DNA of 49,649 bases from assembly GCA_024278345.1 (NCBI GenBank), contig JAJRTK010000459.1:1-49649 (forward strand), in the 5' to 3' direction. The notes beneath the pieces are model-generated. The model saw nothing but the letters and a program-made list of their open reading frames with translations. It was not told the DNA's origin and ran no database searches. The stretch is from a bacterium (GTDB lineage Bacteria; CSSED10-310; JAJRTK01). Below, piece by piece: positions 6,710 to 27,449 of this stretch. How positions within the stretch are numbered: position 1 is the first letter of the stretch; the number at the start of each line of letters is the position of its first letter. A program made the translations under genes and the position numbers.

Positions 6710-6743
6710 CCCCGGCCGAAGCTTCATCCGGAGGTGGAAACGG

Positions 6744-6826
6744 GGCGAGTGGCGGCGGCCGGGGGGAACTCGCGCCGTAGGCGTGGGTCGTGCCGACGGG
6801 AGCGGACCCCAACACAAAAAAAAGAA
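6744..6826 (+). repeat. copy A of dispersed repeat GGCGAGTGGCG...GGGAGCGGAnnnCAACnCnAAAAA
   Basis: ggcgagtggcggcggcc...gacgggagcggaccccaacacaaaaaaaagaacg; shares both ends with copies at 22692, 35044 and (reverse) 25539. Confidence 0.6.
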
Positions 6827-6967: not shown

Positions 6968-7252
6968 TCAAAACATGAGGGAAAGCTCTTCCAACCTGCC
7001 CAACTCTCTGTAAAGCTCTCGCACTTGCGCCGCCGACGCGGCCACGACTTCCAACGTGACACAGAGGTGCCGGCCTTTGGAGCTGGAGCGGGTGCTGAGC
7101 CTTGGGTCTCCCGCAACCCCCGTCACCTGGAGAACCACGGCACGAACCCTTTGAGAAAAAGTCGTCGATGACTTGGAAAAGAGCTTGATAGTGAACTGGC
7201 CCGGGAAAGAATGTGCCGCCTCCAACGCCTCGATGGAGGGAAGGTTGTCCAT
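6968..7252 (-). CDS. DUF493 (YbeD-like) family protein
   Basis: MDNLPSIEALEAAHSFPGQFTIKLFSKSSTTFSQRVRAVVLQVTG...TRSSSKGRHLCVTLEVVAASAAQVRELYRELGRLEELSLMF matches the YbeD/DUF493 pattern (FPxxFxIKxF...SSxGxYxSVTxxxxAxSxxQxxxLYxxL). Confidence 0.75.
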   Translation of the reverse strand: MDNLPSIEALEAAHSFPGQFTIKLFSKSSTTFSQRVRAVVLQVTGVAGDPRLSTRSSSKGRHLCVTLEVVAASAAQVRELYRELGRLEELSLMF

Positions 7253-7363
7253 GTCCGTGTCTCCGGTTATGCTAGTATCGGTAACCACCAGCGGTTTTTT
7301 CTTGCGCCCAAACAGCCAGCATTTTACAGTGGTTCGCAAACAAAGCACAACGGAGCCGGAACC

Positions 7364-10300
7364 ATGAAAAACCGCCAACCGACTCGTTCTACGGGATGCT
7401 CGATTTCTTCGGCCATCTCCTTGACCAGGGACTCCTTCCATTTCTGTTGTCTTCCGCTCCCGTCGGCGGCAATCCGTCCGCCGCCAGTCGCCTGTTTGAT
7501 CTTCGCGATTCTATTCTTCGGAGGCCCGGCAGAGGCGGTTCCCCACAAGGCGCCGAGCAGCGGGCTGGTAGCCCCGGTGACCACCACCTGGGCCGAAGTC
7601 TTTCGGCGGCAGGCCGAACTCCGGGCCCGTCCGGACCGGGAGAGACAGCCCAGTATAAGTCCGTACATCTCCCGTATGGAGTATCAGTATCCCGACCTCA
7701 TCATCGCCGAAAGAAAGAGGATCGCCGACTTCGAAGCGGCCGTGCGGCGGGCCATTGCCAATGGAGAGGAGCCGCCCCGGTTTTGGCAACCGTATGATCC
7801 GGAAGTGGACCAGATGGATGCTTCAGCGGAGGAGGTGCCGCCCGCGGGTTCTTCAGCGGAGGTCGGGCCGCCTGAAGGTTCCCGGTCTGGGCCCATCCTT
7901 GCTCCCAGTCCATACGCGAACTGGTCTGGGTTGAGCGATACAGGGAGGCCGTCCGATTCTCACTTGGCGGTGGGGCCGGCTCATGTTGGAATCATGGTCA
8001 ACAAGGAGCTGGCCTTCTACACCAAGGATGGGACCATGGTCCGGGGGCCGGTCAATTACGAGGCGTGGTGGTCCAGCGCGCCGGTGCCCAACGATCTCTT
8101 CGACCCGAAGATCGTCTACGACAGCCAGAACGGCCACTGGATCATGCTGGCCATCAACGGGCGATCTGGCGATCCCGAAACCTACTTTGCGATCTCCGTC
8201 TCCCAGACGAGTAACCCGGAGGGGGTCTGGTGGACCTGGTATCTCCGATCCGACATGGATGGAGGCACGGACACGGCGTTGTGGGCCGACTACCCGGGGC
8301 TCGGCTTTGACAGCGGCGACATGACCACCAGTACGACCACGGGAGGAGCCGTTTACATCACGTCGAACCAGTTCGATTCCAGCGGAAGCTTCCAATACGC
8401 CAAATTGCGGGTCGTCGCCAAGCACCAGCTTTACACGGGAGGCAATGTGGGCTGGTGGGATTTTTGGGGCTACAGCCACAACTTGATCCCGGTCTTCACC
8501 TGGAAACCGGCGGTCACCATGAGCTCCACGGGAACGAGCCCCACGGAGTATCTCATCAACTCCCTCTCCGCGGGCACCTTTGGAATCGCGAATTACGTGG
8601 TGAAATGGAGGGTGACCCAGCCGCTGTCAGCTTCGGGGCCCACGCTCAGTGGCGGCGACACCGTCAGTACCAATTCCTATAGCGTGCCACCGGCGGCCAA
8701 GCAGCTCGATGGTGGATCGACGATCCTCATTGACAGCAACGATTGCCGGACTCAGGACCTCCAGTACCGCGGCGGCTACCTCTATCTTGCCATCGGCGAT
8801 GCTTCGGACTTCGGCTCGGGAGACGTCGAGGCTGTCATCCACGTCTTCAAGATCAACGCTTCCAGCAACAACGTGGTTTGGGATAACCGGTACGGCGCCA
8901 ACAACCTGTACTACTCCTACCCGAACATCATGGCCGATGCCGATGGCGATGTCATCATCGGTTTTTCAAGGAGTGGCTCCACCATCTATCCGGAAGTCCG
9001 CGTCACGGGTCGTCTGAGCACCGACACCCAGATCCAGGGAAGCGCCCTGGTGAAAGCTGGCGAGGCGATGTACAACCCCACGACGGATCAAGTGGACCGT
9101 TGGGGAGACTACAACGGAGTGGGAGTCGATTGTGCCGGAGACGGGAAGGGCGGTTGGGTCATGAGCCAATACGGTGTCTCCAGCAATACCTGGGCCACCT
9201 GGGTGGGCGGCTCCAGCTTCGGGAGCCCCAACGTGCTCCATCTCAATGAGGGGGACTCCCTCTGGACCAGTACGGCGCCTCGGTACTTCACCTGGAAGAT
9301 CTATTCTTATGACTGGGCGGGAACAGCCATCTACAACAGCTTGGGAGGCGACAATGACCTGGCAGTCTCGGATACCTGCCCGTTCGGAGTACCCTATCAG
9401 TCCTCCACATACGGCACGGACGTCCGGGATTTCGTCGTGGCCAACGGCGCCCAATACGGGACGGTCTACCACCACTCCCGGGTAACGCACTACGGTGGAG
9501 CCTCTGGTTACCGGATCGAAGCACGAAACCAGGCGACGGATCGGAGCGTGGGAAGCACGGCCACCGACAGCCTGGCCTCCTCCGAGCTGATGGATCTCTT
9601 CGAGGTCACCCTCGTCAGTGGCAAGAGCTATGCCGCCGTGGTGGACATTCAAGACGGAACCGCGGACCTCGATCTTTGGGCCTTTAAAGGTACCAGGCAG
9701 AGTGGCCGAAGAGGCGACAACGACGGCAGTTCCCAAACCACGGGGGCGGGGCTGGACGAAACCTTGGCTTTTACAGCCAGCGAGAGCTCCAAGTGGGGAT
9801 TCGTAGTCCTCAACGAAAACTTTGGGAGCAGCAACTACACCTTCCGGGTCTGGCTTGCCCCTATTGTCGCTGCTATCGGTGACGAGACGATCGCCGGCGG
9901 TCTCGCCTATACAGGCCCCACGCCCAGCTTGACCGAGGGAACGCCTTCTGTTGCCTGGAGCCTCAGCACGGGCCCCACCGGCATGACCATCGACTCGGCC
10001 ACGGGCGTGGTCTCCTGGACTTCGCCAACGGCAGGCACCCACACCATCTCCATCCAGGCCGACAACCCCGCTGGCAGCGATAGCGAAAGCTGGCTCCTTA
10101 CCGTCCTGGCCACGCCGACGCCGACTCCTTCGGACACGCCTACCACGACATCGACACCAACCGTCACGGAGACCCCAACCCAAACCTTGACCCCGACAAA
10201 GAGCCCCTCTCCCAGCAACACGCCAACCATGACACTCACGCTGACGGGAACCATCACACCACTGGCCACGGCCACGGAAACCCAACTCTCTCCCACACAG

Positions 10301-10504
10301 ACCGGAACAGCAACGTGGACACCGATGGTCCCGCCATCCGCAACAAAAACCTCTTCACCAACACCAAAGGAACCGCAGGCAACCGCCACGGCCACGTCAA
10401 CTCCTCTGATCCGATCTGTAGACGCACCGCCCTCCACGGGGCTATTGCTCCTCTTGCTACCTCTTTTGGCACTCCCCTTGATCTTCCGGCGTGGGCCGGG
10501 GTAG
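7364..10504 (+). CDS. large exported protein with Ig-like domain, Thr/Pro-rich stalk and C-terminal membrane anchor
   Basis: ATG at 7364; hydrophobic N-terminus; C-terminal Ig-like ...GPTGMTIDSATGVVSWTSPTAGTHTISIQADNPAGSDSESWLL, then TPTPSDTPTTTSTPTVTETPTQTLTPT... stalk, then GLLLLLLPLLALPLIFRRGPG. Confidence 0.75.
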   Translation: MKNRQPTRSTGCSISSAISLTRDSFHFCCLPLPSAAIRPPPVACLIFAILFFGGPAEAVPHKAPSSGLVAPVTTTWAEVFRRQAELRARPDRERQPSISPYISRMEYQYPDLIIAERKRIADFEAAVRRAIANGEEPPRFWQPYDPEVDQMDASAEEVPPAGSSAEVGPPEGSRSGPILAPSPYANWSGLSDTGRPSDSHLAVGPAHVGIMVNKELAFYTKDGTMVRGPVNYEAWWSSAPVPNDLFDPKIVYDSQNGHWIMLAINGRSGDPETYFAISVSQTSNPEGVWWTWYLRSDMDGGTDTALWADYPGLGFDSGDMTTSTTTGGAVYITSNQFDSSGSFQYAKLRVVAKHQLYTGGNVGWWDFWGYSHNLIPVFTWKPAVTMSSTGTSPTEYLINSLSAGTFGIANYVVKWRVTQPLSASGPTLSGGDTVSTNSYSVPPAAKQLDGGSTILIDSNDCRTQDLQYRGGYLYLAIGDASDFGSGDVEAVIHVFKINASSNNVVWDNRYGANNLYYSYPNIMADADGDVIIGFSRSGSTIYPEVRVTGRLSTDTQIQGSALVKAGEAMYNPTTDQVDRWGDYNGVGVDCAGDGKGGWVMSQYGVSSNTWATWVGGSSFGSPNVLHLNEGDSLWTSTAPRYFTWKIYSYDWAGTAIYNSLGGDNDLAVSDTCPFGVPYQSSTYGTDVRDFVVANGAQYGTVYHHSRVTHYGGASGYRIEARNQATDRSVGSTATDSLASSELMDLFEVTLVSGKSYAAVVDIQDGTADLDLWAFKGTRQSGRRGDNDGSSQTTGAGLDETLAFTASESSKWGFVVLNENFGSSNYTFRVWLAPIVAAIGDETIAGGLAYTGPTPSLTEGTPSVAWSLSTGPTGMTIDSATGVVSWTSPTAGTHTISIQADNPAGSDSESWLLTVLATPTPTPSDTPTTTSTPTVTETPTQTLTPTKSPSPSNTPTMTLTLTGTITPLATATETQLSPTQTGTATWTPMVPPSATKTSSPTPKEPQATATATSTPLIRSVDAPPSTGLLLLLLPLLALPLIFRRGPG

Positions 10505-10592
10505 GCCGTGCCTGGCGGAGACGTCGGGGTGAGACTCACCCGGATCTCTCGTGGTTTATCTGCCCCATTAGTTGGATGCAATGGCCTTTTGC

Positions 10593-10857
10593 GGGTATCC
10601 ACGCAAGGCGGGACATTCCCGGGACTGTGGAATCGCAAGCGTCCGGGCAACGCCTCGCTATCGCTCGGCGGGTCACGCCGCGCGTTATCCGAAGGTGGTC
10701 CGGGGATTCCATCCCCTGGCAGGGCTTCGCCCTGCACCCACCAGGGAGCACGCAAGGACCCGTTGCAATGAAAAGCAACGAGTTCCCCACCCACGTTTTT
10801 GTACGCCGCGCGTCTTTTTTTTGGTTTTGTTGCGTGTCCCGGCTTAGGTGGATACCC
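10593..10857 (+). repeat. dispersed repeat R copy 1, bounded by inverted GGGTATCCACGCAAGGCGGGACA ends
   Basis: gggtatccacgcaaggcgggaca at 10593; diverged inverse copy tgtcccggcttaggtggataccc at 10835-10857. Core shared with 27985-28071 (minus) and 49574-49649. Confidence 0.65.
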
Positions 10858-11008
10858 GCCTTTTGCAGAGCCGAGGGCGGCTGTGCCCCCCCTACATGCC
10901 CCCCCCCGCGGGCAGCGCTCTTCGGTTTCGGATTGGAAGCTCAAACGAAAGGCGTGGTAAAGATTGCTGATGGGCAGCTTGACGGCAGGCACCATCTAAA
11001 AACTAGGA

Positions 11009-11061
11009 GGTGGTGGGCGGTACCAACCGAAGGAAGAATCGGCTCCGCTCCGCCCACCACC
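11009..11061. repeat. perfect 12-bp inverted repeat upstream of the 1798-aa gene
   Basis: ggtggtgggcgg (11009-11020) / ccgcccaccacc (11050-11061). Confidence 0.75.
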
Positions 11062-11090
11062 GATGACCCCCGCCGAAAATTTGGAGGCCA

Positions 11091-14000
11091 GTGATGATCC
11101 GGCAACCACGGCAACGGCAAGCCGCGACAGAACCTGCTTACGGGCCGCGAACTTTCTCTTCGGGAGATCTGCGCAAGACCCGGCCTCCAAGGTGGCCTCT
11201 TCTGTTACTCCTGGGGGTTTCGGCGGTTTCTCTGCCGGCATTTGCAGGCGGGCAGCCGGCTTTTCCCATGAATGGCCATGCGACGCTGAAATCGACGCGC
11301 TTAGCGGCCACGGGTCCGGGAGAAACCTTGCTCGATGTCTCGGATTTCGGCAGATACGCCATCACGGCGAAAAGCGCCCAGGGTGTGGCCTTGCAGATCG
11401 TGGACCGGATGAGCGGTCCCGGTAAGCTCCATGGAAAAGCGGGAAGGGAAGATGGTCGGCTGGATCTGTTTCTCGATGGCGGAAGTTACCTGGTGCGGAC
11501 CTTCGCCGCCGCGACGGGATCTGGCCAGGTAGAGCTGGAAGCCGCTGGTTTCCGGGAACGAAACCTTCAGCCTCTGCCCATCCTGGAGAAATACAAGCTG
11601 GTTCGGTCTCACTTGAGGGATCTGGAGCAGCGTTCCTATTGGCTTCAGGTGGGAGGGCGTGGATGGGTGACACTGGAGGGGGCGGGCCGGTATTTGGCGG
11701 ACCTTCGGCTTTGGCGAGATGGGAGCTGGCTGGTGGGCAGCGAGCCCGAAGTCACAAGGCTTGAGTCCGACCCAGAGCGCCCGCTGGTGAATTGTCGCTT
11801 GGCAGCCGAGCTGGAGCCCGGGCTCTACCTGGTGACGTTCTACGGTGGTCCGGGGCTTACCTGGAGCGTCGAAAGCAAGGACTCCCCGCTCTATGTTCGT
11901 TTCGGGATCCCGGAGCTCCCGGCAGAGGGCCGGCGGCGGTTCGAAGTGAGCTCGTTCGGCATCGATCGCTGGCTTGTTCCAGGGCGGAGCGACCATTTCC
12001 GGCTGGAGCTGCCCAAAGCCCGGGAGGCCCGGCTTGGGGTGGGCTGGTATACCACGGAGAACCTGTTCGAAAACGACATCTGGACCGGTGATCTCGACAA
12101 GCGCTCGAATCCCCCACTCATTGAACTGAGCGCGACAGCGGATTCGACGCGAACCCACCTGGTGACGGTTACCGGGCTGGCGGGACAGCCGTACGTCCTG
12201 GAGCATTTTCCCACATCCAAGCCCCCGACACTGGGGGGCGACAGCGGGCGGTTCTGGCTGGAGACTCTCTCATCGGGTGACCCGCGGGATTCCTTGGACT
12301 CTACCTCGCTCATCCTCCGCCGCCGGCAAGATAGGAAAAGAAACTGGAGTCAGGAGGTTGTGGCCCACACGGCCCTGGAGATGGGGGAAAACATAGGTTT
12401 CGTCAGGCGCTTCAACCTGCTGGGCACCAGCACGCTTTTCTTGGAGGTTCTGGATCGCGGGAGCTACGGAGTCTGGGTCGAGGGAAACGGCTCGGCCCTC
12501 GTCCGGATCGAGCCCTACTTTCCTGAGCCTCCGGAGCACTATTCACCGCCACCCTTTCAGGCAGAGGGAGCCGTCTTCGAGCTCGATCCGGGGCTACATG
12601 TCGTGACGCTGAAGGCCATAGAAACGGGAAGCATCGAGCTTGTCGTGGCCACGGCGGCGGGAAAAACCGGCGAAGCCAAGGCACCTGGCAAGGCGGAACG
12701 GAGGCGCATGGAAAGAGAGAATCCACGGCAGGGAGCCTCCATCTACCAGGCATTCGAGGTCGATGGGTCAGCGGATTATCAAATCGTTGGGAATCAGAGG
12801 CCCGGGATCATCCACGGTTTTCTGCAAAGGCCCCTCCCTCTGGACCTTCAAGCCGCCCTTCCCGTGGTTCAGAAAGGAAACAGCACTCTAGAGCTTCCCG
12901 TCCTTGTCCGAGAGGGATCGGTCCTTCACGTCCTGGGAGACCATGGCCAACCGGTGCCCTTCTCTCTCGATGGGACCCCGAAGAGTGGGGAGGCCCTGCT
13001 CTCTCCCGGTGGCTACCAGGTCTCCATTGAGAATCCCGAGAACACGCCTCTTGTCTATTCCCTGTACACCGTCCCTCTCCGCCTCGATCCCAAGACGCCC
13101 CTTTCCACATTGCCGCCTCGGGCCCTGGAGAAGCTCCCGAGCTTCCCGATCCTCCAAGCGGGAAAACCACTGGCGCGGGACCTGGGAGCCAGCCAAGAGG
13201 CGACATTCCTTGTGCGGGCTGACGAACCCCGACTCTACCAGATCCAAAGCACCGGTCTCCTGGCAACCAGTGGAACGCTTCGGACCCGGATGGTCCCCGA
13301 CCTGGCCAGGAAAGCCCGCAACGGAGTGGGCCGCAATTTTCTGCTGCAAGAATACCTTCGGGAAGGCGACTACCAGGTGACGGTAAAAACTCTTGGCCGC
13401 TCCGCGGGCCATCTGGGGTTGGAACTCTTGGAGACTCCCCTGCTCCAAGGCGGGGTCCTGCGTGAGGGAGAGCCATCGAGAATCCGGCTGAATGCCGGTG
13501 AAGCGGTGGAATACTGGTTCACGATCCCGGAACGTGCCTTCTACCGTCTTCGAGGAATCGGCCAGAACCGAAGCTTTCGCTGCCGGCTGGAGGATTCGGA
13601 AGGTTGGCCTCTCCTTCGCCCCGACAGCCCCGCCGACATCACTCGGGAGTTCGAGGCGGGCCGCTATCGCTTCATCCTGCTCCCCGAATCAGTGGAAACG
13701 CGACGCCTGGCACTCCTTGAAAAGAAGCCTGAAGCACCGAAGCTCACGGGCCACGGTCCTCATTCAGTTCCGCTCGGCAAGAAGGTCTCCCACGTGTGGC
13801 GGGAACCCGCGGGACAAGGCGAGCGGCTCCCCGATATTTGGGAGTTCAAGCTTCCAGCCCGAGCGGATTTGAGGATCCTTCCCGGCCGGGAAATGGAAGG
13901 CGAGCTAAAACAGTGGACGGAGAATCATTGGACCGGTCTCCACCAGGTTTCCCCGCGCGGTTGGCACGGGCGCCTCGATGCGGGCCGTTACCGCCTGGAG

Positions 14001-16487
14001 GTAGCCTGCACCCGCGATAACGATTTATGGGACTATGAGATCAAAGTCACGACGGAGCAACTCGTAGCGGAGACCTCGAAACCGTTAACCGCTCCGGGAG
14101 ATTTGGGCATCGCCATGGGAGAGAGCGGTCAGGTGGAGATTAGCTCCCTGTGCGACGACGATGTCAGTGGGACCTTGAGGAAGGAGGATGGCAAGCTCAT
14201 CGCCCAAAATGATGATCGGCCCAACGACTGGAACTTTCTTCTCTCCACCGCCCCGGGACCCGGGATCTATAACCTGACGGTGACGCCGGTGGGAGCGGAC
14301 TCGGCCAACTGTATCATCTCCATGCGCCGGCCTAAATGGACAGCGTTGCCGCCGGTTCAAGCTCCAGGCATCCTTCACGTGACCCCCGGCGACTCGATCT
14401 TGGAAATTCCTCTGGAGCTTCCAAGCACCAAGGAGCTCCTCCTTGCCGTCGCTGATTCCGCGACCCCCGTTGGAATCGCTCTGGAACGCCTCCAAGAAGG
14501 CAATTGGATCGAAGTCACTGGCGAGATGGCCAGGCAAGCGGAAAGCGGAGCCCCGCTGAAGGCCAAAGGTCATCAAGCACGGATCGAAGCCCTACTGGAC
14601 GGTCGTTGGCAACAAACGCGCCTGCGGGTCTGGTCTCCTGATGGAGATGGGTCACCGGTCACGATAGGACTCTACACTGCATCCCCGGAGGCCGTCCCCG
14701 AAGCAGAGCTGGAAAGAGGCCTCACATTGGCTGGAATTGGCGTTGACGCCCCTGTTCTGGCCGTGGCGGCAGTAGACCTGGAAGCACCGGGGATATTCCG
14801 GCTTCAATCGACGGGGAATGACCTGCGTATTTGCCAGCCGGGAATGGCGGTTTGCCAGAGAATCGAGGGGAAGCTGATCTCCCTTGGGAAGGGCAAGAGC
14901 TGGTGGATCCTGCCACCGTCGCCGACTCTTTCGGTGTCCGCGAAGAGGGTTCATCTGGAGAAAGACGAATTGAGTCTCTCCCTTGATGGGCTACCGCGCA
15001 TTGTTTGTGACGTCGCCCCAAAGAAGCCGGGACCATTCCTCGTGCGTGCCATGGCCCAGGTGGGACAGCCCGGCCTCGCGCTTTTGCCGGACCCTGGGGG
15101 AATCCTGCCGGGAAGTGGAAAAAGAGACCGAGAGGGCCAGATGGCCGTCAGCACCAGGAGCGCGGTGGTGGTCAGTCCCGGCGGGGAAAGGGGAGCCCTC
15201 TTGTTGTGGAATGCGGACGAGAGCCAGCCTTTGGGGGATCTGCGCCTCCGGCTGTGGAGTTTCGATCCCCCCACGGAAGAAGCCGTCGAATGGGGTTCAT
15301 GGAGCCGTCGTCTAGAGGCTGGCACAGCCCACCGCCTGGAACTGCCGGAGGGACTTAAACAGGTTCGCCTGGCTCTAGACGCGGAGGTCGCCGCGGCATT
15401 CTCCCAGAGCGGAAAGATCCTCAGCACGCATGTTGTGGCGAGCTCTCCTTCCCAAGAACTCCTGGAGACGACGGCCAGAACCGTGACGTTTCTCAACCCG
15501 TCCGAGACAGGCCGATTCTACTCTTTGGAGCTGCTGCCCCAAAACGACGGCCGCCAGTTGGTCGTCTCGCCCGCCAAGCCGTTTGAAGGAGGCTCCTGGA
15601 CCGGGGAAAAAGTTCGGCTGGAGGTCTCCGCGCCTAAGGCCAACAAGGGGAAAACGCGGCTTCGCATGGGAGGCTGCGCGGAGAATGCGCTTCTTGTGGG
15701 AGCTAATGGAACGGTAGCGAGAGGAATGGAAATGACCATCACGAGCTCCCTTTCCACCCTGCTTTTCCAAAGAAAAAAATGCCAAGTCATGGCTTGGATT
15801 GAAGAGGGGCAAATCGGGAGCTCTGGCCCCTGGCCAACAACCGCCGCGCCCATTGGGGCATCGGCGCCAGCAACGGGCCAACTGGAGCTGCGCTCCCAAG
15901 CCATGGCGATAGAGTTCGCGCCTCCCCGGGGAGCAACCGGTGCAACGCTGGTACTCTTCCGGACGGCAACCGCGGTTGCCTGCCGCCAAGGCTCCGGCCT
16001 CGCACCGATGATCACCTCCCATCCGGAGGGAGCCTGGCTTCCCATGTTCTTTCCCTCTGGCCGCGGGACTCTTGAGCTTCGGCCCCTGGAGGGCAAGAAT
16101 CTCTGGGGGTTCGGGAGCTTTTTGACGGTGCTGCCCGAAAGCCTGGGCGAAGGGCCCAACGGGGAGCTTTTTTTGGGCAGGGGCGAGGCACGTCTCTTTT
16201 CTTTCGAAGTCCAAAGGGCCGGCCCGGTAGGAATCGGAATTCAAAGTTCCTCTGGCACCGTAGAGGCCGATCTCTACGACCACCAAGGCAATTTGTTGGC
16301 AAAGGGTCTAGCCATGATGCCAAAACTGGAACCGGGCCTTCACTACATCGTCGTTTCTGTCCCCCCTGAAGGAGCTCCCGGCAACGCCCGAATTGCCATC
16401 GTGGGCCTTGAGCAGCCCGGTAGTGGGCCACCTCCAGATGTAGTCCACAACTATTTGGAAGCCGAACAGAGGAGGGGTGAACAATGA
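11091..16487 (+). CDS. giant exported repeat protein (array of beta-sandwich/PPC-like repeats), unknown function, upstream of A2M
   Basis: N-terminal hydrophobic PRWPLLLLLGVSAVSLPAFAGG; recurrent repeat-ending strands PGLYLVTFYGG, PGLHVVTLKA, PGGYQVSIEN, EGDYQVTVKT, AGRYRFILLP, AGRYRLEVAC, PGIYNLTVTP, PGLHYIVVSV. Confidence 0.7.
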   Translation: MMIRQPRQRQAATEPAYGPRTFSSGDLRKTRPPRWPLLLLLGVSAVSLPAFAGGQPAFPMNGHATLKSTRLAATGPGETLLDVSDFGRYAITAKSAQGVALQIVDRMSGPGKLHGKAGREDGRLDLFLDGGSYLVRTFAAATGSGQVELEAAGFRERNLQPLPILEKYKLVRSHLRDLEQRSYWLQVGGRGWVTLEGAGRYLADLRLWRDGSWLVGSEPEVTRLESDPERPLVNCRLAAELEPGLYLVTFYGGPGLTWSVESKDSPLYVRFGIPELPAEGRRRFEVSSFGIDRWLVPGRSDHFRLELPKAREARLGVGWYTTENLFENDIWTGDLDKRSNPPLIELSATADSTRTHLVTVTGLAGQPYVLEHFPTSKPPTLGGDSGRFWLETLSSGDPRDSLDSTSLILRRRQDRKRNWSQEVVAHTALEMGENIGFVRRFNLLGTSTLFLEVLDRGSYGVWVEGNGSALVRIEPYFPEPPEHYSPPPFQAEGAVFELDPGLHVVTLKAIETGSIELVVATAAGKTGEAKAPGKAERRRMERENPRQGASIYQAFEVDGSADYQIVGNQRPGIIHGFLQRPLPLDLQAALPVVQKGNSTLELPVLVREGSVLHVLGDHGQPVPFSLDGTPKSGEALLSPGGYQVSIENPENTPLVYSLYTVPLRLDPKTPLSTLPPRALEKLPSFPILQAGKPLARDLGASQEATFLVRADEPRLYQIQSTGLLATSGTLRTRMVPDLARKARNGVGRNFLLQEYLREGDYQVTVKTLGRSAGHLGLELLETPLLQGGVLREGEPSRIRLNAGEAVEYWFTIPERAFYRLRGIGQNRSFRCRLEDSEGWPLLRPDSPADITREFEAGRYRFILLPESVETRRLALLEKKPEAPKLTGHGPHSVPLGKKVSHVWREPAGQGERLPDIWEFKLPARADLRILPGREMEGELKQWTENHWTGLHQVSPRGWHGRLDAGRYRLEVACTRDNDLWDYEIKVTTEQLVAETSKPLTAPGDLGIAMGESGQVEISSLCDDDVSGTLRKEDGKLIAQNDDRPNDWNFLLSTAPGPGIYNLTVTPVGADSANCIISMRRPKWTALPPVQAPGILHVTPGDSILEIPLELPSTKELLLAVADSATPVGIALERLQEGNWIEVTGEMARQAESGAPLKAKGHQARIEALLDGRWQQTRLRVWSPDGDGSPVTIGLYTASPEAVPEAELERGLTLAGIGVDAPVLAVAAVDLEAPGIFRLQSTGNDLRICQPGMAVCQRIEGKLISLGKGKSWWILPPSPTLSVSAKRVHLEKDELSLSLDGLPRIVCDVAPKKPGPFLVRAMAQVGQPGLALLPDPGGILPGSGKRDREGQMAVSTRSAVVVSPGGERGALLLWNADESQPLGDLRLRLWSFDPPTEEAVEWGSWSRRLEAGTAHRLELPEGLKQVRLALDAEVAAAFSQSGKILSTHVVASSPSQELLETTARTVTFLNPSETGRFYSLELLPQNDGRQLVVSPAKPFEGGSWTGEKVRLEVSAPKANKGKTRLRMGGCAENALLVGANGTVARGMEMTITSSLSTLLFQRKKCQVMAWIEEGQIGSSGPWPTTAAPIGASAPATGQLELRSQAMAIEFAPPRGATGATLVLFRTATAVACRQGSGLAPMITSHPEGAWLPMFFPSGRGTLELRPLEGKNLWGFGSFLTVLPESLGEGPNGELFLGRGEARLFSFEVQRAGPVGIGIQSSSGTVEADLYDHQGNLLAKGLAMMPKLEPGLHYIVVSVPPEGAPGNARIAIVGLEQPGSGPPPDVVHNYLEAEQRRGEQ

Positions 16488-16753
16488 TTGGGAAACTTAC
16501 CAACAAAGTGGACCGCAGACCGTCCTTCCCCAAAAATCAGGGGTGTCCAGATAAGGTGGAACTTACGAAAAAGCAAGAAAACGCACGGCGCCCAACCGGG
16601 CAAAGCGAGAGTCGTTCAAGGCGATCCGTCCATCACCAGATCTCCCGCCCTGTTCCGGGCTGGGAGAAGCTGGGAAGAGGCTGCCAGAACGAATTGTCCC
16701 GCCTTGGATGGAACCCCCAAAGAGAGGCCGGCACCGGGATTTAGGGCCAATGG

Positions 16754-19700
16754 ATGGGGACAGGGGTGAAAGGTGCGAGCAGCGGGCGACGGACTGCGCC
16801 CGATGTGAGCGGAACACAACTCTCCAAGCTCCCATTGGTTGCCCTGACAACCTTATTCCTTGCTGTTTCCAGCGGGACTTTTGTCATGGCGGCGCCAGTT
16901 GAAGCTCAGGGACCCGGCGCGAAAGCCACGGCCACCATCGTTCCCGACAACTTCCTGCGGCGCTGGGATCCCATCACGATCTTTTTCCCGGAAGAGCTTG
17001 GACCGGCAACGGGTGGACCGGAAGATGAGCCCCATCGCTTCGTATCACTGACTCCGGCGCATCCCGGTGCATACCGGTGGCTCGATTCTAGGACGTTACA
17101 GTTTCGCCCGGTCGAGCCTTGGCCTCCATTGGAGCAGTTCACCGTGGAAGGCGGCAACCGGAAGCTCTCTTTAGAGACACTGATGTCGCCGCCGGTTCGG
17201 ATGTTGCCCAGAAATGGCACGACCACCGGTCTTGCGCCCGTTGAGCGGATCACCTTGGAGTTTTCTGAGCCTCTTGATCCCGCGGATCTGGCCAAGATTC
17301 TCCGGATCGAGCTCCGCCCGTCGCCCGGGGTGATCTCTGCCGATTCCCGCTGGCTGGACGAGCGAGATTTCGAGATCAAGGTCCAGGAACGGAGCTCACG
17401 CTCTTCTCTGGCCAAATTCGTCATTCTCCTGCGCCACGCGATCCCCACGGCCACAAAGGTCGTTTGCCATTTTCGCCTATCCTTGGCCGATAGCGGCGAT
17501 GAATCTTTCATGAGCCTCTGGTTTAGGACTCCCGGGTCTTTCCAAGCCACGCGGCTCGGGTGCAAGGGCAGCATGCTTCCGCTCTCGCCGGGAGGCATTC
17601 GATACACAAGAGACCAGGCTATCTCCTGCGCCCCAAGCGACCGCGCCATCCGGGTCCGTTTCTCCGCGCCATGCCAGCTCGGCCCGGTGGAGGCCAGAAA
17701 CTTCGTGCGAATCAGCCCGGCCGTGGAGGGGCTTGAAGTGGCGGGCAAGGGCAAGGTATTGGAGCTACGCGGCAAATTCCACTCCGAGCAGCTTTATCGG
17801 GTGACTCTCCGCCCAACGAAGCTCACGGATGCGGCAGGCCGGTCGCTAGAGATGTCGGGTTCGAACGAGGTCTACCTCTTTTTTCCCAGGGAGGACCCGT
17901 ATCTCCGCTGGCTCAAGGCGAACGGAATCGCCGAGCGCTTTGGCCCGCAAATGGTCCCCTTGGAAGGTCGCGGCTTTGCCAAGGGCGATCTGAGGATCCA
18001 CAAAATCGATCCCCTTGACCGCTCTTTTTGGCCGATGCCAGGCCGCCGTGTGACCGTAGACGAGTCAAATCGCCCGCCCGGGCCCGGCGAAGAGCCCGCT
18101 CCCTTCAAGGAACCCGCGAGATCCATCTACACCAGCGAGATTTCGAAGCAGATTGCAGCCCTGGGTTCCCCCGCACTCTCGACGATTGTCTCTCTTCCCC
18201 TGGCCTCTACGGATCGAGCGGCCAGCTTCGGCCTTGACCTCAAGCCCTATCTTTCTAGGATTTCTGGAAAAGAGAAACCGGGAGCTTATCTTCTTGGCCT
18301 GAGGAAGCTCGACAAGTCAAGTCAACGTTCCTGGATGCGCCTTCAGGTCACCGATCTCAGCTTGACCACCGTGGAAGAAGCAAAGCGCGTCGTCTTCGTG
18401 GTGACCTCCCTCTCCACGGGTCGCCCGGTCGCCAAGGCCATCCTTCGCCTGGAAGGCGCAAAGCGTGATCGCCAGAGAAAGTATAGGTGGAAGACCCTTT
18501 TTTATGGAACGACCGATGCCCAAGGGCGCTGCGTCTGGCAGGCTCCGGGCAAAGAGCGGCGAAGCTCCTGGAAGATCAAGAGGCTTGTGGTCCGAAAAAG
18601 CGTTGATACGCTGGTTCTCAACACAACCGAGCCCCCCGAGGCCTATCATGACAATGTCTGGTCCAGGGACTACAGTACGTGGCTCCAGTGGACGACAAAC
18701 CAGCTTGTCTGGCGAGGCCCTCAACCGAAACCGATGGTTCATATTTTTACCGAACGTCCTCTGTACCGCCCCGAAGAGGCGGTACATATCCGGGGCTATG
18801 TTCGGCAATTCGACGCCGGGCGCCTCACGCCCATCGTTCCCGATGCAAAGCTAGTCGTTGAAGGTCCGGGCGAACTCAAATGGACGAACCCTGTCCAGTG
18901 GACTTCAAAGGGCAATTTCTACTTTCGTTTTCAGGAAAAGAAACTGCCCACGGGGCGGTACAGAGCCTACCTGGAAATGCCACGGGGCTACAGATACGAC
19001 TCCGTGACCTTCAGGATGGAAGCTTATCGCCTGCCGCGCTTCGAGGTGGAGCTTCACGCCCCCGACACAGTTCCCATGGACCGTGAGTTCAAGGTTCGCC
19101 TCACGGCGCGCTACTATGCCGGAGGCAGCGCAGCCAAGCTCCCGGTGAAGTGGCGGATCTCGCAGTTCCCCTACACTTGGACCCCCGACAAAAGAGAAGG
19201 CTACGCATTCTCTTCCGACAGCCGCTACTCCCGCACGAATAGATTCGAGGGGGGCAGTGTTGTAGAGCAAAGCACCACTGACGAAGGTGGTTCCGACCTC
19301 CTGAGCCTGAATCCCGCTGGCGAAGCGACGGCGCAACCCCGAAGCTACATCGTCGAAGCTACGGTAACGGGCGCCGATGAACAGACCGTCACCAGCACGC
19401 GGCGCATCCTGGCCCTTCCGCCATTCGTTCTTGGCATGAAGGTGGCGCGCTACCTGGAAGAAGGAACCGAGCTCAAACCCGAGATCATCGTCGTTGGACA
19501 CGATGAAAAACTCATTGCCGCCAAGAAGTTCACTCTCCGCCTTTACCACCGGCAGTGGCACTCTTATCTCGAAGCCTCGGACTTTGCCGATGGAGTCCCC
19601 CACTATCGGACCGATGTCGTGGACAAGCTCGTCCTGGAAAAGAGCCTCATCAGCTCTTCAAAGCCCCTGGAAGTTCCCCTAGAGATCGCGGAAGCCGGGG

Positions 19701-22618
19701 TCTATCTTGTGGAGTTGGAAGCAGCGGATCGCCTGGGCCGAACCCAGACCCTGAAGGTCGATCTCTTCGCAGGCGGCAAGGGCCCCGTTGCATGGAAACG
19801 CCCCGCGACCAAGAGCCTCACGGTCACTCCCCACCAAGGCAGTTACAAACCCGGGCAGCTTGCTCATCTCATCGTCCAAAGCCCCTTCCAAAAAGCCGAG
19901 CTTCTGGTCATCGTCGAGGCCCCCGAAGGCAATCGATACCAGTGGGTGCCCGTTCGCGGCGGCACCGCGAACTTCCAGCTCGAACTCCTCCCCACCTGGG
20001 CTCCGCGTCTCCCCATCCACTTAGTGCTCATGCGCCCGCGCCTCCCCAAGACCCACCCCGCCCAAAAGAGCGGTACCGATCTCGGCAAACCAACGACTCT
20101 CGCTTCCACCATTTGGCTCGATGTCGAGCCAATGGCGAATCGCATCGACATCGACCTGGACTACCCGGAAAAAGCCATGCCAGGGGAAACCGTGGAGTTC
20201 CGTATCCACCTCAGCACCCCTGACAAAACCCCGCTCTCCGGGGAGGTCACGCTCTGGCTCGTGGACCGCGCCGTCCTGGCCTTGGCCAAGGAGCAGCGCC
20301 TCGACCCAGTTCCGGATTTCCTGAGCCGAGTCGTTTCCTATCTCACTCTCCACGATACCCGGGGCCTGACCTTCGGCTGGCTCCCCTTGGCCCTCAAAAC
20401 CGGCGGTGGCTTCGGAAAGCGGAAACAAGAGCTCCTTGACCGAGTCACCGTGCGCAAACGCTTTAAGACCGTTCCTTACTACAACCCCACAATCCAGGTG
20501 GGCTCCGACGGAAGGGCTCTGGTCACGGTTCAGCTCCCGGATAACCTCACGACTTTCGCCGTTCGAGCCAAAGCGACGAGCGGGGCTCAGCGTTTCGGCT
20601 ATGCCGCGGGAGATATCGCCGTCCGCCTCCCGCTCATCGTCCAGCCTGCCCTGCCAAGATTCGTGCGGCCGGGAGATCGTTTCACCGCCACTGCTATGGG
20701 GCGCGTGGTGGATGGGCCGGGAGGCCCGGGAAACGTCCAAATCCAAACCCTGGGTGCCGGCGTCCTGGGAGAGCGCCAGAAACAGGTCAGTTGGAGACCC
20801 GACGAACCCCAGCGCCTGGAATTCCCGGTGGTGGTGGGAACGCCGCCGCTGACCGACGACGGAAAACTCCTCTATCAAGAGGTCGTCTTCCAGGTTGCCG
20901 TGGAGCGAATGGCCGATGGCGCCAAGGACGCCTTCGAGATCAAGCTTCCCATCCTCGAGGATCGTCAACCTGTCCGAACTAGCCTCTTCAAGAAACTCAA
21001 GCCCGGCAAATCCCTCAAATTGCCAAGGCTCAAAGAAAAAGCCAGACCGGGAACCCTGAGCCGGTCTCTCATGATCGCCAGCCGCCCTGCCCTGCTTTCC
21101 ATGCTTGGCGGCCTTGACTTCTTTCAGCGCTATCCCTACGGCTGTACCGAGCAACGGGCCAGCCGTCTCCGGACACAACTTGCGGTCCAGAAACTCCAAG
21201 GCCTCCTCCAGCGCAAAACCGCCGACAAGGAACTGGAACGTGCATTCCGTCAAACGCAGGACTGGATCATCTCCGCCACGGATGAAGACGGCCTTTGCGC
21301 CTACTGGCCCGGCTCCGGAAGCTCGGTCTTCCTCACCTCCTGGGTCGTTCTCACCTTGCTGGAGGCGGCACAAGAGGGCCTGCCGGTGGATCAAGAGCTT
21401 CAGGATCGCCTTCTCAAAGGCCTGGAGCGCTCCCTGAGATCGGACTCCCAACATCTCCTGAGCGGAGCCGTGGAATTCGAGAAGGCCTGGGCCCTGGCCG
21501 CCCTGGCCGCGGCGGGCCGCTTCCAGAGCGCCTATGCCGCCGAGCTCGCCCGGAAAGCCCGATACCTCGATACCGAAGGCACGGCCCAGCTCCTCCTGGC
21601 ACTGAGTGACGGCGGAGCCACCGACTCGCCCAGAATCCCCGGCCTCCTGGAGCAGCTCTGGCGTGACATCGAGATTCGCCTTCACCAAGGAAAAGAAGCC
21701 TACTCTGGCCTCCGCCGGGAGTGGAGCCCCGATGGCCGCATCCTCTCCAGTGAAGCCCGAGTCCTCGCCACCACTGCCCAGGCGCTGCTGCGCGTCGATC
21801 CAAAGAATCCCAGACTGCCCATGCTCACCAATGCCCTCATCACCCTGGGCCAAGACGATGGCTGGGGCTCCACCAATGCCAATGCCGCCGCCCTTCGGGC
21901 TCTCACCGAGCTTCTAAAGCCGCCCTTCGGCCCGCCAAACCCCCTTGCCATCAAGCTTCGGATCGGCGACTTCACTGAAGCTGTCACTCTCGATGAAAAA
22001 ACGCCACTCCTGCTACGAACCTTCAATGTCCGTGACAAGGGGAAGCTCACGCTTTCTAAGACAGCCCGCAACCCCATCGCCGTGAAGCTCGAAACCGAAT
22101 ACACACCGGCGAAACCCGGCTCGGAGGCATCTCCAAAGGCCAACGGCTTCGTCGTCCAACGAACGCAGTTTCGAATCCTTGAGGAGGGCGACCCTCCCGA
22201 GCGGCAGGACCTGAAAAAGGGCGGACGGACCATCAACTACACCATGGGCACCATCATCGAAGAACAGGTTCAGGTGGTCAACCCCAAGACACGCAACTAC
22301 GTCGCCATCGTGGTTCCCTTGGCCGCCGGCATGGAGCCACTCAACCCACGCCTGGCCACGGCACCTCCCGAGGCCAAACCCAGCCACGAACTCACCCTGG
22401 AACCTAGCTCCAGCGCCTATCTCGACCACCAGGTCGCCTTCTACTACGACACGCTTCCCAAGGGAACCTTCAATTTCTATTTCCGTACCAGGGCCACCAC
22501 TGAGGGGACTTTCATCCAACCACCGGCCCTGGCCGAAATGATGTACGATGCCTCGACCCGAGGCAATTCCGCTGGCGCCTCGATCCAGGTCACTCCACAG
22601 GAAGGGCCACCTCAATAG
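16754..22618 (+). CDS. bacterial alpha-2-macroglobulin family protein with thioester motif
   Basis: MG-domain motif FTERPLYRPEEAVHIRGYVR; thioester YPYGCTEQRASRL encoded at 21131-21154; alpha-alpha toroid segments and C-terminal receptor-type domain. Start codon uncertain. Confidence 0.93.
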   Translation: MGTGVKGASSGRRTAPDVSGTQLSKLPLVALTTLFLAVSSGTFVMAAPVEAQGPGAKATATIVPDNFLRRWDPITIFFPEELGPATGGPEDEPHRFVSLTPAHPGAYRWLDSRTLQFRPVEPWPPLEQFTVEGGNRKLSLETLMSPPVRMLPRNGTTTGLAPVERITLEFSEPLDPADLAKILRIELRPSPGVISADSRWLDERDFEIKVQERSSRSSLAKFVILLRHAIPTATKVVCHFRLSLADSGDESFMSLWFRTPGSFQATRLGCKGSMLPLSPGGIRYTRDQAISCAPSDRAIRVRFSAPCQLGPVEARNFVRISPAVEGLEVAGKGKVLELRGKFHSEQLYRVTLRPTKLTDAAGRSLEMSGSNEVYLFFPREDPYLRWLKANGIAERFGPQMVPLEGRGFAKGDLRIHKIDPLDRSFWPMPGRRVTVDESNRPPGPGEEPAPFKEPARSIYTSEISKQIAALGSPALSTIVSLPLASTDRAASFGLDLKPYLSRISGKEKPGAYLLGLRKLDKSSQRSWMRLQVTDLSLTTVEEAKRVVFVVTSLSTGRPVAKAILRLEGAKRDRQRKYRWKTLFYGTTDAQGRCVWQAPGKERRSSWKIKRLVVRKSVDTLVLNTTEPPEAYHDNVWSRDYSTWLQWTTNQLVWRGPQPKPMVHIFTERPLYRPEEAVHIRGYVRQFDAGRLTPIVPDAKLVVEGPGELKWTNPVQWTSKGNFYFRFQEKKLPTGRYRAYLEMPRGYRYDSVTFRMEAYRLPRFEVELHAPDTVPMDREFKVRLTARYYAGGSAAKLPVKWRISQFPYTWTPDKREGYAFSSDSRYSRTNRFEGGSVVEQSTTDEGGSDLLSLNPAGEATAQPRSYIVEATVTGADEQTVTSTRRILALPPFVLGMKVARYLEEGTELKPEIIVVGHDEKLIAAKKFTLRLYHRQWHSYLEASDFADGVPHYRTDVVDKLVLEKSLISSSKPLEVPLEIAEAGVYLVELEAADRLGRTQTLKVDLFAGGKGPVAWKRPATKSLTVTPHQGSYKPGQLAHLIVQSPFQKAELLVIVEAPEGNRYQWVPVRGGTANFQLELLPTWAPRLPIHLVLMRPRLPKTHPAQKSGTDLGKPTTLASTIWLDVEPMANRIDIDLDYPEKAMPGETVEFRIHLSTPDKTPLSGEVTLWLVDRAVLALAKEQRLDPVPDFLSRVVSYLTLHDTRGLTFGWLPLALKTGGGFGKRKQELLDRVTVRKRFKTVPYYNPTIQVGSDGRALVTVQLPDNLTTFAVRAKATSGAQRFGYAAGDIAVRLPLIVQPALPRFVRPGDRFTATAMGRVVDGPGGPGNVQIQTLGAGVLGERQKQVSWRPDEPQRLEFPVVVGTPPLTDDGKLLYQEVVFQVAVERMADGAKDAFEIKLPILEDRQPVRTSLFKKLKPGKSLKLPRLKEKARPGTLSRSLMIASRPALLSMLGGLDFFQRYPYGCTEQRASRLRTQLAVQKLQGLLQRKTADKELERAFRQTQDWIISATDEDGLCAYWPGSGSSVFLTSWVVLTLLEAAQEGLPVDQELQDRLLKGLERSLRSDSQHLLSGAVEFEKAWALAALAAAGRFQSAYAAELARKARYLDTEGTAQLLLALSDGGATDSPRIPGLLEQLWRDIEIRLHQGKEAYSGLRREWSPDGRILSSEARVLATTAQALLRVDPKNPRLPMLTNALITLGQDDGWGSTNANAAALRALTELLKPPFGPPNPLAIKLRIGDFTEAVTLDEKTPLLLRTFNVRDKGKLTLSKTARNPIAVKLETEYTPAKPGSEASPKANGFVVQRTQFRILEEGDPPERQDLKKGGRTINYTMGTIIEEQVQVVNPKTRNYVAIVVPLAAGMEPLNPRLATAPPEAKPSHELTLEPSSSAYLDHQVAFYYDTLPKGTFNFYFRTRATTEGTFIQPPALAEMMYDASTRGNSAGASIQVTPQEGPPQ

Positions 22619-22691: not shown

Positions 22692-22750
22692 GGCGAGTGG
22701 CGGCGGCCGGACTGCCGCCGCCGCGAGCGGAACCCAACCCAAAGAAAAGA
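22692..22750 (+). repeat. copy B of dispersed GGCGAG...AAAA repeat
   Basis: ggcgagtggcggcggccggactgccgccgccgcgagcggaacccaacccaaagaaaag. Confidence 0.6.
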
Positions 22751-22830: not shown

Positions 22831-24291
22831 GTGTCGATTCCCTACTTCGAACGCCTGTCAGGACTCGATTCCTCGTTTCTGCTCATGGAAAACCGGACCA
22901 TGCCGATGCACGTCTCGGCAACTCTTCTTTTCGATGGAACAAACCTCCTCCGGCCAGATGGCGGGCTGGACTTCCCGAGAATCCGGGATTATATAGCGTC
23001 CCGTCTCCACCTGGTGCCCCGGTACCGCCAACGGCTGGCCTTCACTCCCATCGAGGGCCATCCTGTATGGATCGACGACGATCAGTTCGACCTCGATTAC
23101 CACCTCCGCCACTCGGCACTTCCCAAGCCGGGCAACGAATCCGCCCTCCAAGAGCTCTCCTCCAGGATCATGTCGCAACCTTTGGACCGGAGTCGCCCTC
23201 TCTGGGAAATGTGGCTGGTGGAGGGGCTCCAGGACCGCCAAATCGCCCTGATCAGCAAGACGCATCACTGCATGATCGACGGGATTTCCGGGGTCGATTT
23301 GCTCCAGGCGATACTCCGCCCCTCCACTGAGCCGGTGGACGGTGACGACCCGCCAACCTGGACGCCGAGACCGGCCCCCTCGGCTCTCACTCTCCTGGAA
23401 GACACCGTTTGGCGCTGGAGCCGGCTCCCGCTCGATCTGACGAGGAGCGCCCTCCGCACAGCCTCTTCCTTGATCGCTCCCCGGGCCGCCCGACTCGACA
23501 AATCGGCTCCCGGCTTCTTCGGAGCCGGCCAACTTCTGAATCGAGGCAAAGCTCTCTGGCGCCTGCTGGGCCTCGGCCTGCTGCCCACGGCACGGACCCC
23601 GCTGAACCGTCCCATCAGCCCCCACCGCCGCTTCATCTGGCTCCAGACCGATCTCGACGTCGCCAGGCGGATCAAATCGGCTCTTGGGGGCAGCGTCAAC
23701 GACGTGGTCCTGGCTATCGTCACCGGCGCCCTCATCCGCTATTTCGAGGCCCGAGGATACCGAAGGCTTTGGACCCGCGACTTCCGAGTCCTGGCTCCCG
23801 TCAGCATGCACACCGACGAAGAGAAAGGCACCTTGGGCAACGACGTTTCCGGGTGGCTGGTCCGCCTGCCCCTGGGGGAAGCCAACCCACGAGAACGGCT
23901 GCGGATGATCCACCAGCAGACCCACAGGTTCAAGGAAACCAACCACGCCCTGGGTGCCGAATCCCTGACCAAAGCCTCGGACTGGTCGGGCTCGACCCTC
24001 TTGTCGCTGGCGATCCAACTCACGGCCCGCGTCCGCCCCTTCAATCTGGTGGTCACCAACGTTCCCGGCCCCAGCCTCCAGCTCTACCTTGCCGATGCCG
24101 CCCTCCTGGCCACATTCCCCCAAGTTCCCCTCTTCGAGAACCTCGGCCTCGGCATCGCCCTCTTCAGTTATGCCGGAAAACTCAACTGGGGTTTCACCGC
24201 CGACTGGGATCTGGTCCCGGACCTCGAAAAGTTCAAGTGCGCCCTCCTGGATGCCGTCCGCGAGCTGGAAGCCGAGGCCAAAAAGAAGTAA
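22831..24291 (+). CDS. wax ester synthase / diacylglycerol acyltransferase (WS/DGAT) family
   Basis: GTG start behind gcgaggagg; MSIPYFERLSGLDSSFLLMENRTMPMHV; catalytic HHxxxDG as KTHHCMIDGISG; NVPGP motif. Confidence 0.92.
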   Translation: MSIPYFERLSGLDSSFLLMENRTMPMHVSATLLFDGTNLLRPDGGLDFPRIRDYIASRLHLVPRYRQRLAFTPIEGHPVWIDDDQFDLDYHLRHSALPKPGNESALQELSSRIMSQPLDRSRPLWEMWLVEGLQDRQIALISKTHHCMIDGISGVDLLQAILRPSTEPVDGDDPPTWTPRPAPSALTLLEDTVWRWSRLPLDLTRSALRTASSLIAPRAARLDKSAPGFFGAGQLLNRGKALWRLLGLGLLPTARTPLNRPISPHRRFIWLQTDLDVARRIKSALGGSVNDVVLAIVTGALIRYFEARGYRRLWTRDFRVLAPVSMHTDEEKGTLGNDVSGWLVRLPLGEANPRERLRMIHQQTHRFKETNHALGAESLTKASDWSGSTLLSLAIQLTARVRPFNLVVTNVPGPSLQLYLADAALLATFPQVPLFENLGLGIALFSYAGKLNWGFTADWDLVPDLEKFKCALLDAVRELEAEAKKK

Positions 24292-25538: not shown

Positions 25539-25601
25539 CCTTTTTTTTCTTAGCGTTGCGCTCCGCTCCCATCGGGCGCCGTCCGACACCCGCTTCTCGC
25601 C
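25539..25601 (-). repeat. copy D of dispersed GGCGAG...AAAA repeat (minus orientation)
   Basis: Reverse complement GGCGAGAAGCGGGTGTCGGACGGCGCCCGATGGGAGCGGAGCGCAACGCTAAGAAAAAAAAGG. Confidence 0.55.
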
Positions 25602-25901
25602 ATTGTCACCGCTGCTCTGGGCTCTTGCCCAGCTACCGGTCTTCTCCTAGTCTTACCATGACAACGGTCTACCATCCCACCGTGGATCTGGATTCCTCAC
25701 GGTGAATCTAACCGTGACAACCTGATTGTTCATTCCCGCTGTGGTCCTCGGCGGGAGCAGCTCCGTAACGATCAGCGGCAAGAAATCCGGGCTGGAATGT
25801 CAGACCCACAAACTTTCTGCTATCGGTAGGCAGGTGAAACAGGAATTTGCATCAGGCGACCTCACACGCCCGGCAAGAGAACCGGGTCAAGGAGCAAAGG
25901 G

Positions 25902-26135: not shown

Positions 26136-27449
26136 TCACAGGTCAGAGGGCGCGGTCACACTGCCGCCCCGGTCGCCTAGCGAGGACGCCTGGAGCTGAG
26201 CGCTGGTTTCCGCGATGCCTTGCCGCACCAACGGGTTGATATTCGTGACCGACGTGTAGGCATCCAGCGCCTCAGCCCAACGCGCTTCCTTGGTATACCC
26301 CTCGGCCTCGACAATCCTTGAGATATCTCTTGAATAGGAATCCACCGACAGTTTCGCTTCGGACATTTTCAGGACTCCGTCCAACTGCCTAAGAACGCGT
26401 TGAACCGCCCAAAACCCCTGCTGGGCCACATCGAGCTCTCCTTCACCATAAGCCTTGATGGCGCGGCCCATCCGTTCCAGCACCGACGCCTGGACACGCT
26501 GGACCAGGAATTCCCGGGACCGAAGGTAGGCATCAACTTTCGTCTGGGTCCCTTCCGGTAGCTCTTGCCCTTCGCGCCACAACTCCGGGTCGGAAAGAAC
26601 GGCTTCGTACTCCATGAGAGCAGCCGTATAGCGCCGCCTGATCATGAAGTCGAGGGCAAACCCGAGGCGCTGCTCAAGGATTGAGTTACGGCTTCTCAAC
26701 ACACTTTCGAGTTGCTTCTGAGGATTGAGCTTCCGCCCCCCAAAACGCACGGTCACGGCATCAGTGGTTCCCGTGAGCGACTGGATCAGACCGGCAACGC
26801 GTCGCAAAAGCACAAGCGCTGAATTATAGCTCCCTCGGCGGAGCTGGCTCATGGCGCGAAGCTCAAGCAACCCACGAGCAAACCCCTCCCGGTATCTGGA
26901 AAGCCGTTCTTCCATCTCTTGGGACTTTCCGGCCACTTCCTCCTGCAGGCCCGCTAACACCTCTACCGCACCGTCAAACTCCCCCCGCCGTATCAGTCTC
27001 TCCAGGTAACCAACTCGCCTCTCGAAACTCTGCTCCGCCGCCGTCAGCCTCAGAACGCCGGAAAAACTATCCTTGCCTACCTCCAGCAACAAGGGCCCGG
27101 ATGTTTCAAAAAAGACGATTGTCCCCCCTTGGACCACGGGCAACGATGCCGTCACCCAATAATAGCCCGCCAAAAGACGAAAACGGGCATGCCCCCTAGG
27201 GTCCGTCAGCTTCTGAGCTAGCAGCCCGCCATTCCGGTCCGCCACGGCGACTTCCGCCTCTCCAGCCTTCCGAATCCAGGCCGACAGCCGATCTTCCGAC
27301 ACACCTTCCACGGAAATGGCCAAATCGACACGGTAAATCCGGCTCAGGTAGTTGATGGGGGATAGCGGGAAGTTCCAGTAATCCAACCCCGCGATCCCCA
27401 TGGCCAGCCCCAAAAAGACCACCGAATAACGAAGGAGAATCTGCTTCAT
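26136..27449 (-). CDS. membrane-anchored protein with helical/TPR-like C-terminal half, unknown function
   Basis: N-terminal TM (LLRYSVVFLGLAMGIAGLDYW), long open frame with helical repeats (GAVEVLAGLQEEVAG, SALVLLRRVAGLI, WAEALDAYTSVTNINPLVRQGI). Confidence 0.6.
   Translation of the reverse strand: MKQILLRYSVVFLGLAMGIAGLDYWNFPLSPINYLSRIYRVDLAISVEGVSEDRLSAWIRKAGEAEVAVADRNGGLLAQKLTDPRGHARFRLLAGYYWVTASLPVVQGGTIVFFETSGPLLLEVGKDSFSGVLRLTAAEQSFERRVGYLERLIRRGEFDGAVEVLAGLQEEVAGKSQEMEERLSRYREGFARGLLELRAMSQLRRGSYNSALVLLRRVAGLIQSLTGTTDAVTVRFGGRKLNPQKQLESVLRSRNSILEQRLGFALDFMIRRRYTAALMEYEAVLSDPELWREGQELPEGTQTKVDAYLRSREFLVQRVQASVLERMGRAIKAYGEGELDVAQQGFWAVQRVLRQLDGVLKMSEAKLSVDSYSRDISRIVEAEGYTKEARWAEALDAYTSVTNINPLVRQGIAETSAQLQASSLGDRGGSVTAPSDL

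Follow-up and report, generated by a model that had tools for sequence, protein, structure and literature searches.

Bacterial type I alpha-2-macroglobulins (A2Ms) often share an operon with pbpC, an association that is common but not strictly defining. The window analyzed here, a stretch of 49,649 nucleotides from a bacterium of the CSSED10-310 lineage, contains an A2M gene directly downstream of a gene encoding a giant exported protein, here called X, and pbpC is not beside them. The first-pass annotation suggested that X could be a dedicated partner of the A2M and implied that it takes the place of PBP1C. The locus thus raises the question of whether X belongs with the A2M, and of what has become of pbpC. 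The features on which our analysis is based are collected in Table 1.

Table 1. Positions of the X, A2M and flanking features in the window
Feature	Position	Strand	Evidence
X: giant exported protein with tandem PPC/CUB-like beta-sandwich domains	11094..16487	+	ORF, RBS, 13-member family alignment, AlphaFold model
X signal peptide: hydrophobic core and AFA-GG cleavage region	11190..11258	+	Sequence
Two N-terminal beta-sandwich domains of X, residues 56-285	11256..11945	+	Conservation; hhalign kinship with later repeats
Four related PPC-like domains of X, residues ~690-1095	13158..14375	+	Segment-wise hhalign, best E 2.6e-10
C-terminal PPC-like domain of X, residues ~1680-1775	16128..16415	+	hhalign to other X domains
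Dispersed genomic repeat over annotated A2M start, first ~22 codons	16740..16820	+	At least 40 matches, 262 first-look candidates in the genome
Type I (thioester) A2M without lipobox, X-linked clade	16754..22618	+	Pfam, profile, tree
Bait-like stretch, short and variable, residues ~1096-1110, flanked by conserved RPR and DLGKP	20039..20083	+	Alignment of 35 A2Ms
Thioester motif YPYGCTEQ, residues 1460-1467, Cys1464 and Gln1467	21131..21154	+	Sequence
Dispersed repeat (REP-like hairpin) at the place of pbpC in relatives	22692..22750	+	At least 40 further matches, 399 first-look candidates
WS/DGAT acyltransferase, next gene 3' of A2M	22831-24291		

With a GTG start, the X reading frame covers positions 11091-16487 and encodes 1798 aa; from the ATG at 11094, it encodes 1797 aa. 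This ATG stands six bases after GGAGG (11083-11087), the putative ribosome-binding site of X, and is the likelier start judging from these signals. An exported 1798-aa protein directly 5' of the A2M had been annotated here, and both the reading frames and the signal peptide agree with that description. No lipobox was found in X with the start codons as predicted, and a scan of the family sequences revealed no consistent transmembrane segment beyond the signal peptide.

Neither Pfam nor NCBIfam gave a significant match to X of the window, no full-length model was found, and searching the PDB by sequence yielded no fitting family label. The PPC model PF04151 had no match in this protein at E 0.1, and the Pfam gathering score was not reached. 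The best PPC E-value within the X family was 2.8e-5, and the match in L050, which was inspected in detail, lay under the cut-off. Other members showed weak matches to PPC, Y_Y_Y and DVUA0089, and those inspected in detail were also under the cut-off, with the exception of one short FxLYD match in L058. The domains of X are beta-sandwiches with the DD...N...LxxGxYxLxV pattern of PPC (PF04151) and DVUA0089 (NF038127), whereas the inspected matches to these models stay below the curated cut-offs and the full length of X is left uncovered. X is a distinct family of its own, without a Pfam or NCBIfam entry.

The architecture of X was examined by comparing the protein with itself. Profile-profile comparison joined many segments of ~100 residues, with E-values down to 2.6e-10, and the C-terminal domain matched the domains at residues 780-890 (E 5e-9) and 1000-1095 (E 1.2e-8) in hhalign. 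Residues 56-285 were among the best conserved (mean pairwise identity 0.37-0.44, against ~0.2-0.3 in residues 1100-1670), and the repeats at 690-1095 were likewise better conserved than residues 1100-1670. Within the 690-1095 run, the segment QNDDRPNDWNF...GPGIYNLTV is the counterpart of the weak PPC/DVUA0089 matches in other members. AlphaFold models based on the 13-sequence alignment consisted of tandem beta-sandwiches, both for residues 56-1085 (mean pLDDT 88.0, pTM 0.74) and for residues 672-1798 (mean pLDDT 80.9, pTM 0.53). Foldseek related parts of the modeled chain to the CUB regions of cubilin and neuropilin and to the collagen-binding (PPC) domains of ColG with a probability of 1.00; whole-length TM-scores were low because only parts align. 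The models therefore show a tandem beta-sandwich fold resembling PPC and CUB domains, folds that frequently serve binding. These results uphold the many beta repeats that the first-pass annotation had read in X, and the HMM search and structure prediction that it had suggested as checks returned predicted PPC/CUB-like beta-sandwiches and no significant family model. Complement C5 and A2M were considered as homologs of X and rejected, as their full-length Foldseek matches were weak (probability mostly <0.85, TM <0.1). PPC-rich proteins encoded elsewhere in relatives of G134 (e.g., G145:C450) scored <190 bits and were set aside as superfamily relatives only.

The window A2M is a protein of 1954 aa with matches to PF07703 (6.4e-17), PF00207 (2.5e-11), PF01835 (MG2; 4.4e-10) and PF17973 (bMG10; 8e-24), and a profile search matched it to the solved structures of E. 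coli YfhM and Salmonella A2M. It has the bait-region and macroglobulin domains and the CXEQ motif of type I A2Ms, the GCTEQ thioester of the first-pass annotation being borne out, and across the A2M alignment the bait-like stretch is flanked by conserved Arg-x-Arg and DLGKP. Protease trapping by bait cleavage and thioester chemistry has been shown for the E. coli A2M (PMC4498604), and by analogy the window A2M most likely traps proteases in this way. The repeat at its annotated start covers the first ~22 codons, so translation may in fact begin 3' of 16754. As residue 238 is the first Cys in the reading frame, however, no start codon can give this A2M a lipobox; the earlier remark that the lipobox Cys is missing holds even if the start is corrected. 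A lipobox and an inner-membrane lipid anchor such as that of YfhM are not universal in type I A2Ms. The same genome encodes two further A2Ms. The first has CVEQ and lies next to a PBP1C gene, without X (L047, on contig C515); the other has CSEQ, and neither PBP1C nor X was seen in the stretch inspected (L048, on contig C446).

To survey the distribution of X, genome contigs were scanned. A single-sequence scan with X gave no match, and an alignment-based scan gave 13 loci. The X-based searches found relatives in the phylum of the window, Acidobacteriota (Thermoanaerobaculia), Desulfuromonadales, a Deltaproteobacteria record, Gammaproteobacteria and Myxococcota. Counting once the loci that were reached twice (L038/L056, L042/L060, L045/L062 and probably G145/L061), X lies directly 5' of an A2M gene in at least 30 distinct genomes from several phyla, and 18 loci are complete X-A2M-pbpC triads. 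The X and A2M genes mostly overlap or nearly do so, a 4-base overlap being frequent. X and, in relatives of the window, pbpC are the only recurrent neighbors of the X-linked A2M. An X-type protein away from A2M was not found wherever the contig extends far enough; this survey of gene neighborhoods had been proposed as a way of refuting the pairing, and it met no such case.

Searches from the A2M side gave the same picture. Among 297 Acidobacteriota genomes queried with the A2M alone, the clade (>1500 bits) was present in 12, and one other A2M scored 356 bits; an independent search of the 297 genomes with an X profile returned the same 12 and no others. In nine of the 12, the region upstream of the A2M is on the same contig, and X is present there in all nine; for G353 and G399, the contig carrying the A2M breaks off and X is on a different one, and G152 is the seed (L053). 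Four of 399 Proteobacteria genomes, including the seed, contained the A2M clade, and all four had X. A lower-scoring outgroup A2M (L123) is accompanied by pbpC and lacks X, as in E. coli yfhM-pbpC. The idea of a dedicated A2M partner is thus retained in the one-to-one linkage of the genes and the lack of orphan X, and the part that made X a stand-in for PBP1C is not.

We further constructed a tree of the A2Ms by a quick method, with midpoint rooting and long outgroup branches. In this tree, the 29 X-linked A2Ms, including those of G353 and G399 with X on a separate contig, formed one clade with a support of 100, separated from X-less A2Ms by 3.12 changes per site. At plausible signal-peptide positions, none of the 29 had a clear lipobox, the start codons being predictions, and 28 retained C-x-E-Q. 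The exception is the Myxococcota A2M of L058 (14917-20667), in which PHGSTAS replaces PYGCTEQ and X is still adjacent; because this A2M keeps X without a thioester, covalent trapping is not what matters in every case. Pairwise distances of X correlated with those of A2M at 0.977 and with those of PbpC at 0.955, values that are uncorrected for the species tree.

The neighborhood of the pair differs in the window: pbpC does not adjoin it, and the gene 3' of the A2M encodes a WS/DGAT acyltransferase, by which a frameshifted pbpC at this position was rejected. When a PbpC of the clade was used as a query against the window genome, however, an 829-bit match was found on another contig (L093; G000:C464:1776-4172). 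This PbpC has PF00912, PF00905 and PF06832 (transglycosylase, transpeptidase and BiPBP_C) all above the cut-off, has its SxxK as STLK, and is placed among the X-linked PbpC proteins at a support of 100/100. Loss of pbpC from the genome was accordingly rejected. The statement that the pair lacks PBP1C is correct for its immediate surroundings and not for the genome, and the view of X as a replacement for PBP1C fails, since relatives have X-A2M-pbpC and the window genome still has the pbpC of the clade. X and A2M are kept together with pbpC apart in four genomes, namely the window genome and those of L058, L061 and L045, indicating that pbpC is less tightly linked to the pair than X and A2M are to each other. 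In one Acidobacteriota locus (L119 in G178, 7004-13084), the 3.9 kb after the X-A2M pair contain no pbpC.

The arrangement in the window is derived: pbpC has moved away from an X-A2M-pbpC set, and the gene appears to have been relocated rather than lost. Dispersed repeats immediately flank the window A2M on both sides, and copies also lie beside the relocated pbpC on C464; rearrangement between such repeats is a plausible cause of the relocation. Further copies of the short hairpin-forming (REP-like) repeat occur in the window at 7446-7492, 25545-25614 and 6743-6825. Other genes of the window include one for a 1507-aa protein (2186-6709) with six lamin-tail (LTD) and two Big_5 domains, which ends in a hydrophobic segment and an arginine-rich tail, resembling a sorting signal. 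Another encodes a large exported protein (7211-10504) with a Thr-Pro-rich linker, a C-terminal hydrophobic segment and arginines near its end, and a 437-aa protein encoded on the minus strand (26136-27449) weakly resembles bMG3 and carboxypeptidase-regulatory domains.

As X stands beside one A2M branch in at least 30 genomes, usually with pbpC next, it seems to be a third component, so far overlooked, of some of the bacterial A2M-PBP1C envelope-protection gene sets. In the literature searched, the coverage of which is incomplete, we found no paper on a third gene at the A2M-pbpC locus. A2M-PBP1C pairs were earlier proposed to be a joint defense and repair set (PMC5764988). The best explanation, to which we give an even chance, is that X serves a non-lipidated type I A2M as a dedicated scaffold or stabilizer in the periplasm and acts with PBP1C in envelope defense or repair. 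X would be exported into the periplasm together with the A2M, neither being lipid-anchored, and would bind it as a large multidomain scaffold or stabilizer. The A2M would trap proteases entering the envelope, and PBP1C, the membrane-embedded third member, would repair peptidoglycan. This is the most economical reading because the lipid anchor is missing from the X-linked clade and the additional gene that is always present is X.

Another possibility is that PBP1C is the main partner of X, and that X serves as its elongated periplasmic activator or sensor, comparable to LpoA and LpoB, with the A2M as a protease-triggered switch by which a breach is sensed and wall repair follows. We consider this unlikely. 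It would fit the position of pbpC as the next gene in most loci and its retention in trans where it has moved, including in the window genome. It would also fit a review according to which no role of PBP1C is known under standard laboratory conditions, whereas PBP1A and PBP1B have LpoA and LpoB (PMC7554673), and the protection that Pseudomonas MagD gives against some peptidoglycan-targeting T6SS effectors (PMC12663445). However, the fixed neighbor of X is the A2M and not pbpC, the X-A2M pair being intact in the four genomes with pbpC elsewhere, and X lacks the lipobox of the Lpo lipoproteins. A more specific form, in which X physically couples the protease-triggered A2M to PBP1C so that bait cleavage switches on local wall repair, is improbable. 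If true, it would explain why A2M and PBP1C genes travel together and would represent a bacterial breach-sensing and repair machine in several phyla.

PPC-type domains are common in secreted proteins, and their presence in X, together with type I signal peptides and the missing lipobox in both proteins, might suggest an external protease-trapping coat made of X and A2M that are either secreted across the outer membrane or exposed on the cell surface, in line with the secretion and surface defense suggested by the first-pass annotation. With no sorting signal or outer-membrane anchor seen in either protein, and with the linkage to pbpC and the periplasmic MagD and YfhM all indicating the periplasm, such a coat has a slim chance of being real. 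The tie between X and A2M consists of genomic linkage and sequence, and the two genes could also be inherited together as an operon that serves their shared expression under envelope stress, with no direct contact of the proteins. However, the two co-occur one to one in several phyla, no orphan having been found, and a long branch splits the X-linked A2Ms from X-less ones, which makes this explanation rather doubtful. As a third protein fixed next to one thioester A2M clade in several phyla, X offers a concrete handle on the roles of bacterial A2Ms and PBP1C and on why their genes adjoin.

E. coli YfhM (ECAM) and PbpC resemble the X-linked loci in having a thioester A2M with bait and MG domains and in the A2M-pbpC order seen in relatives of the window. 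In contrast, no X gene adjoins yfhM, YfhM is anchored in the inner membrane as a lipoprotein whereas no clear lipobox is seen in the X-linked clade, and yfhM adjoins pbpC whereas the X-A2M pair of the window has no adjacent pbpC. The MagD of Pseudomonas, a type II A2M encoded in magABCDEF, is likewise non-lipidated and needs partners from its own operon, above all MagB, on which its stability and location depend (PMC5764988). MagD lacks the CXEQ thioester that the X-linked clade carries, so the window A2M does not fall into type II, and the six-gene mag operon is absent at X loci. MagB is a protein of 589 aa with a transmembrane helix, whereas X has ~1800 aa and none; the likeness drawn here is one of proposed role. 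X may hold or position its A2M, the job done by MagB for MagD and by the lipid anchor for YfhM, but without a transmembrane helix it cannot anchor the A2M in the manner of MagB unless it binds something else, and would therefore act as a soluble or wall-bound scaffold. The X-linked clade thus presents a thioester A2M without a lipid anchor and with a giant partner, a parallel to MagD and MagB among type II A2Ms.
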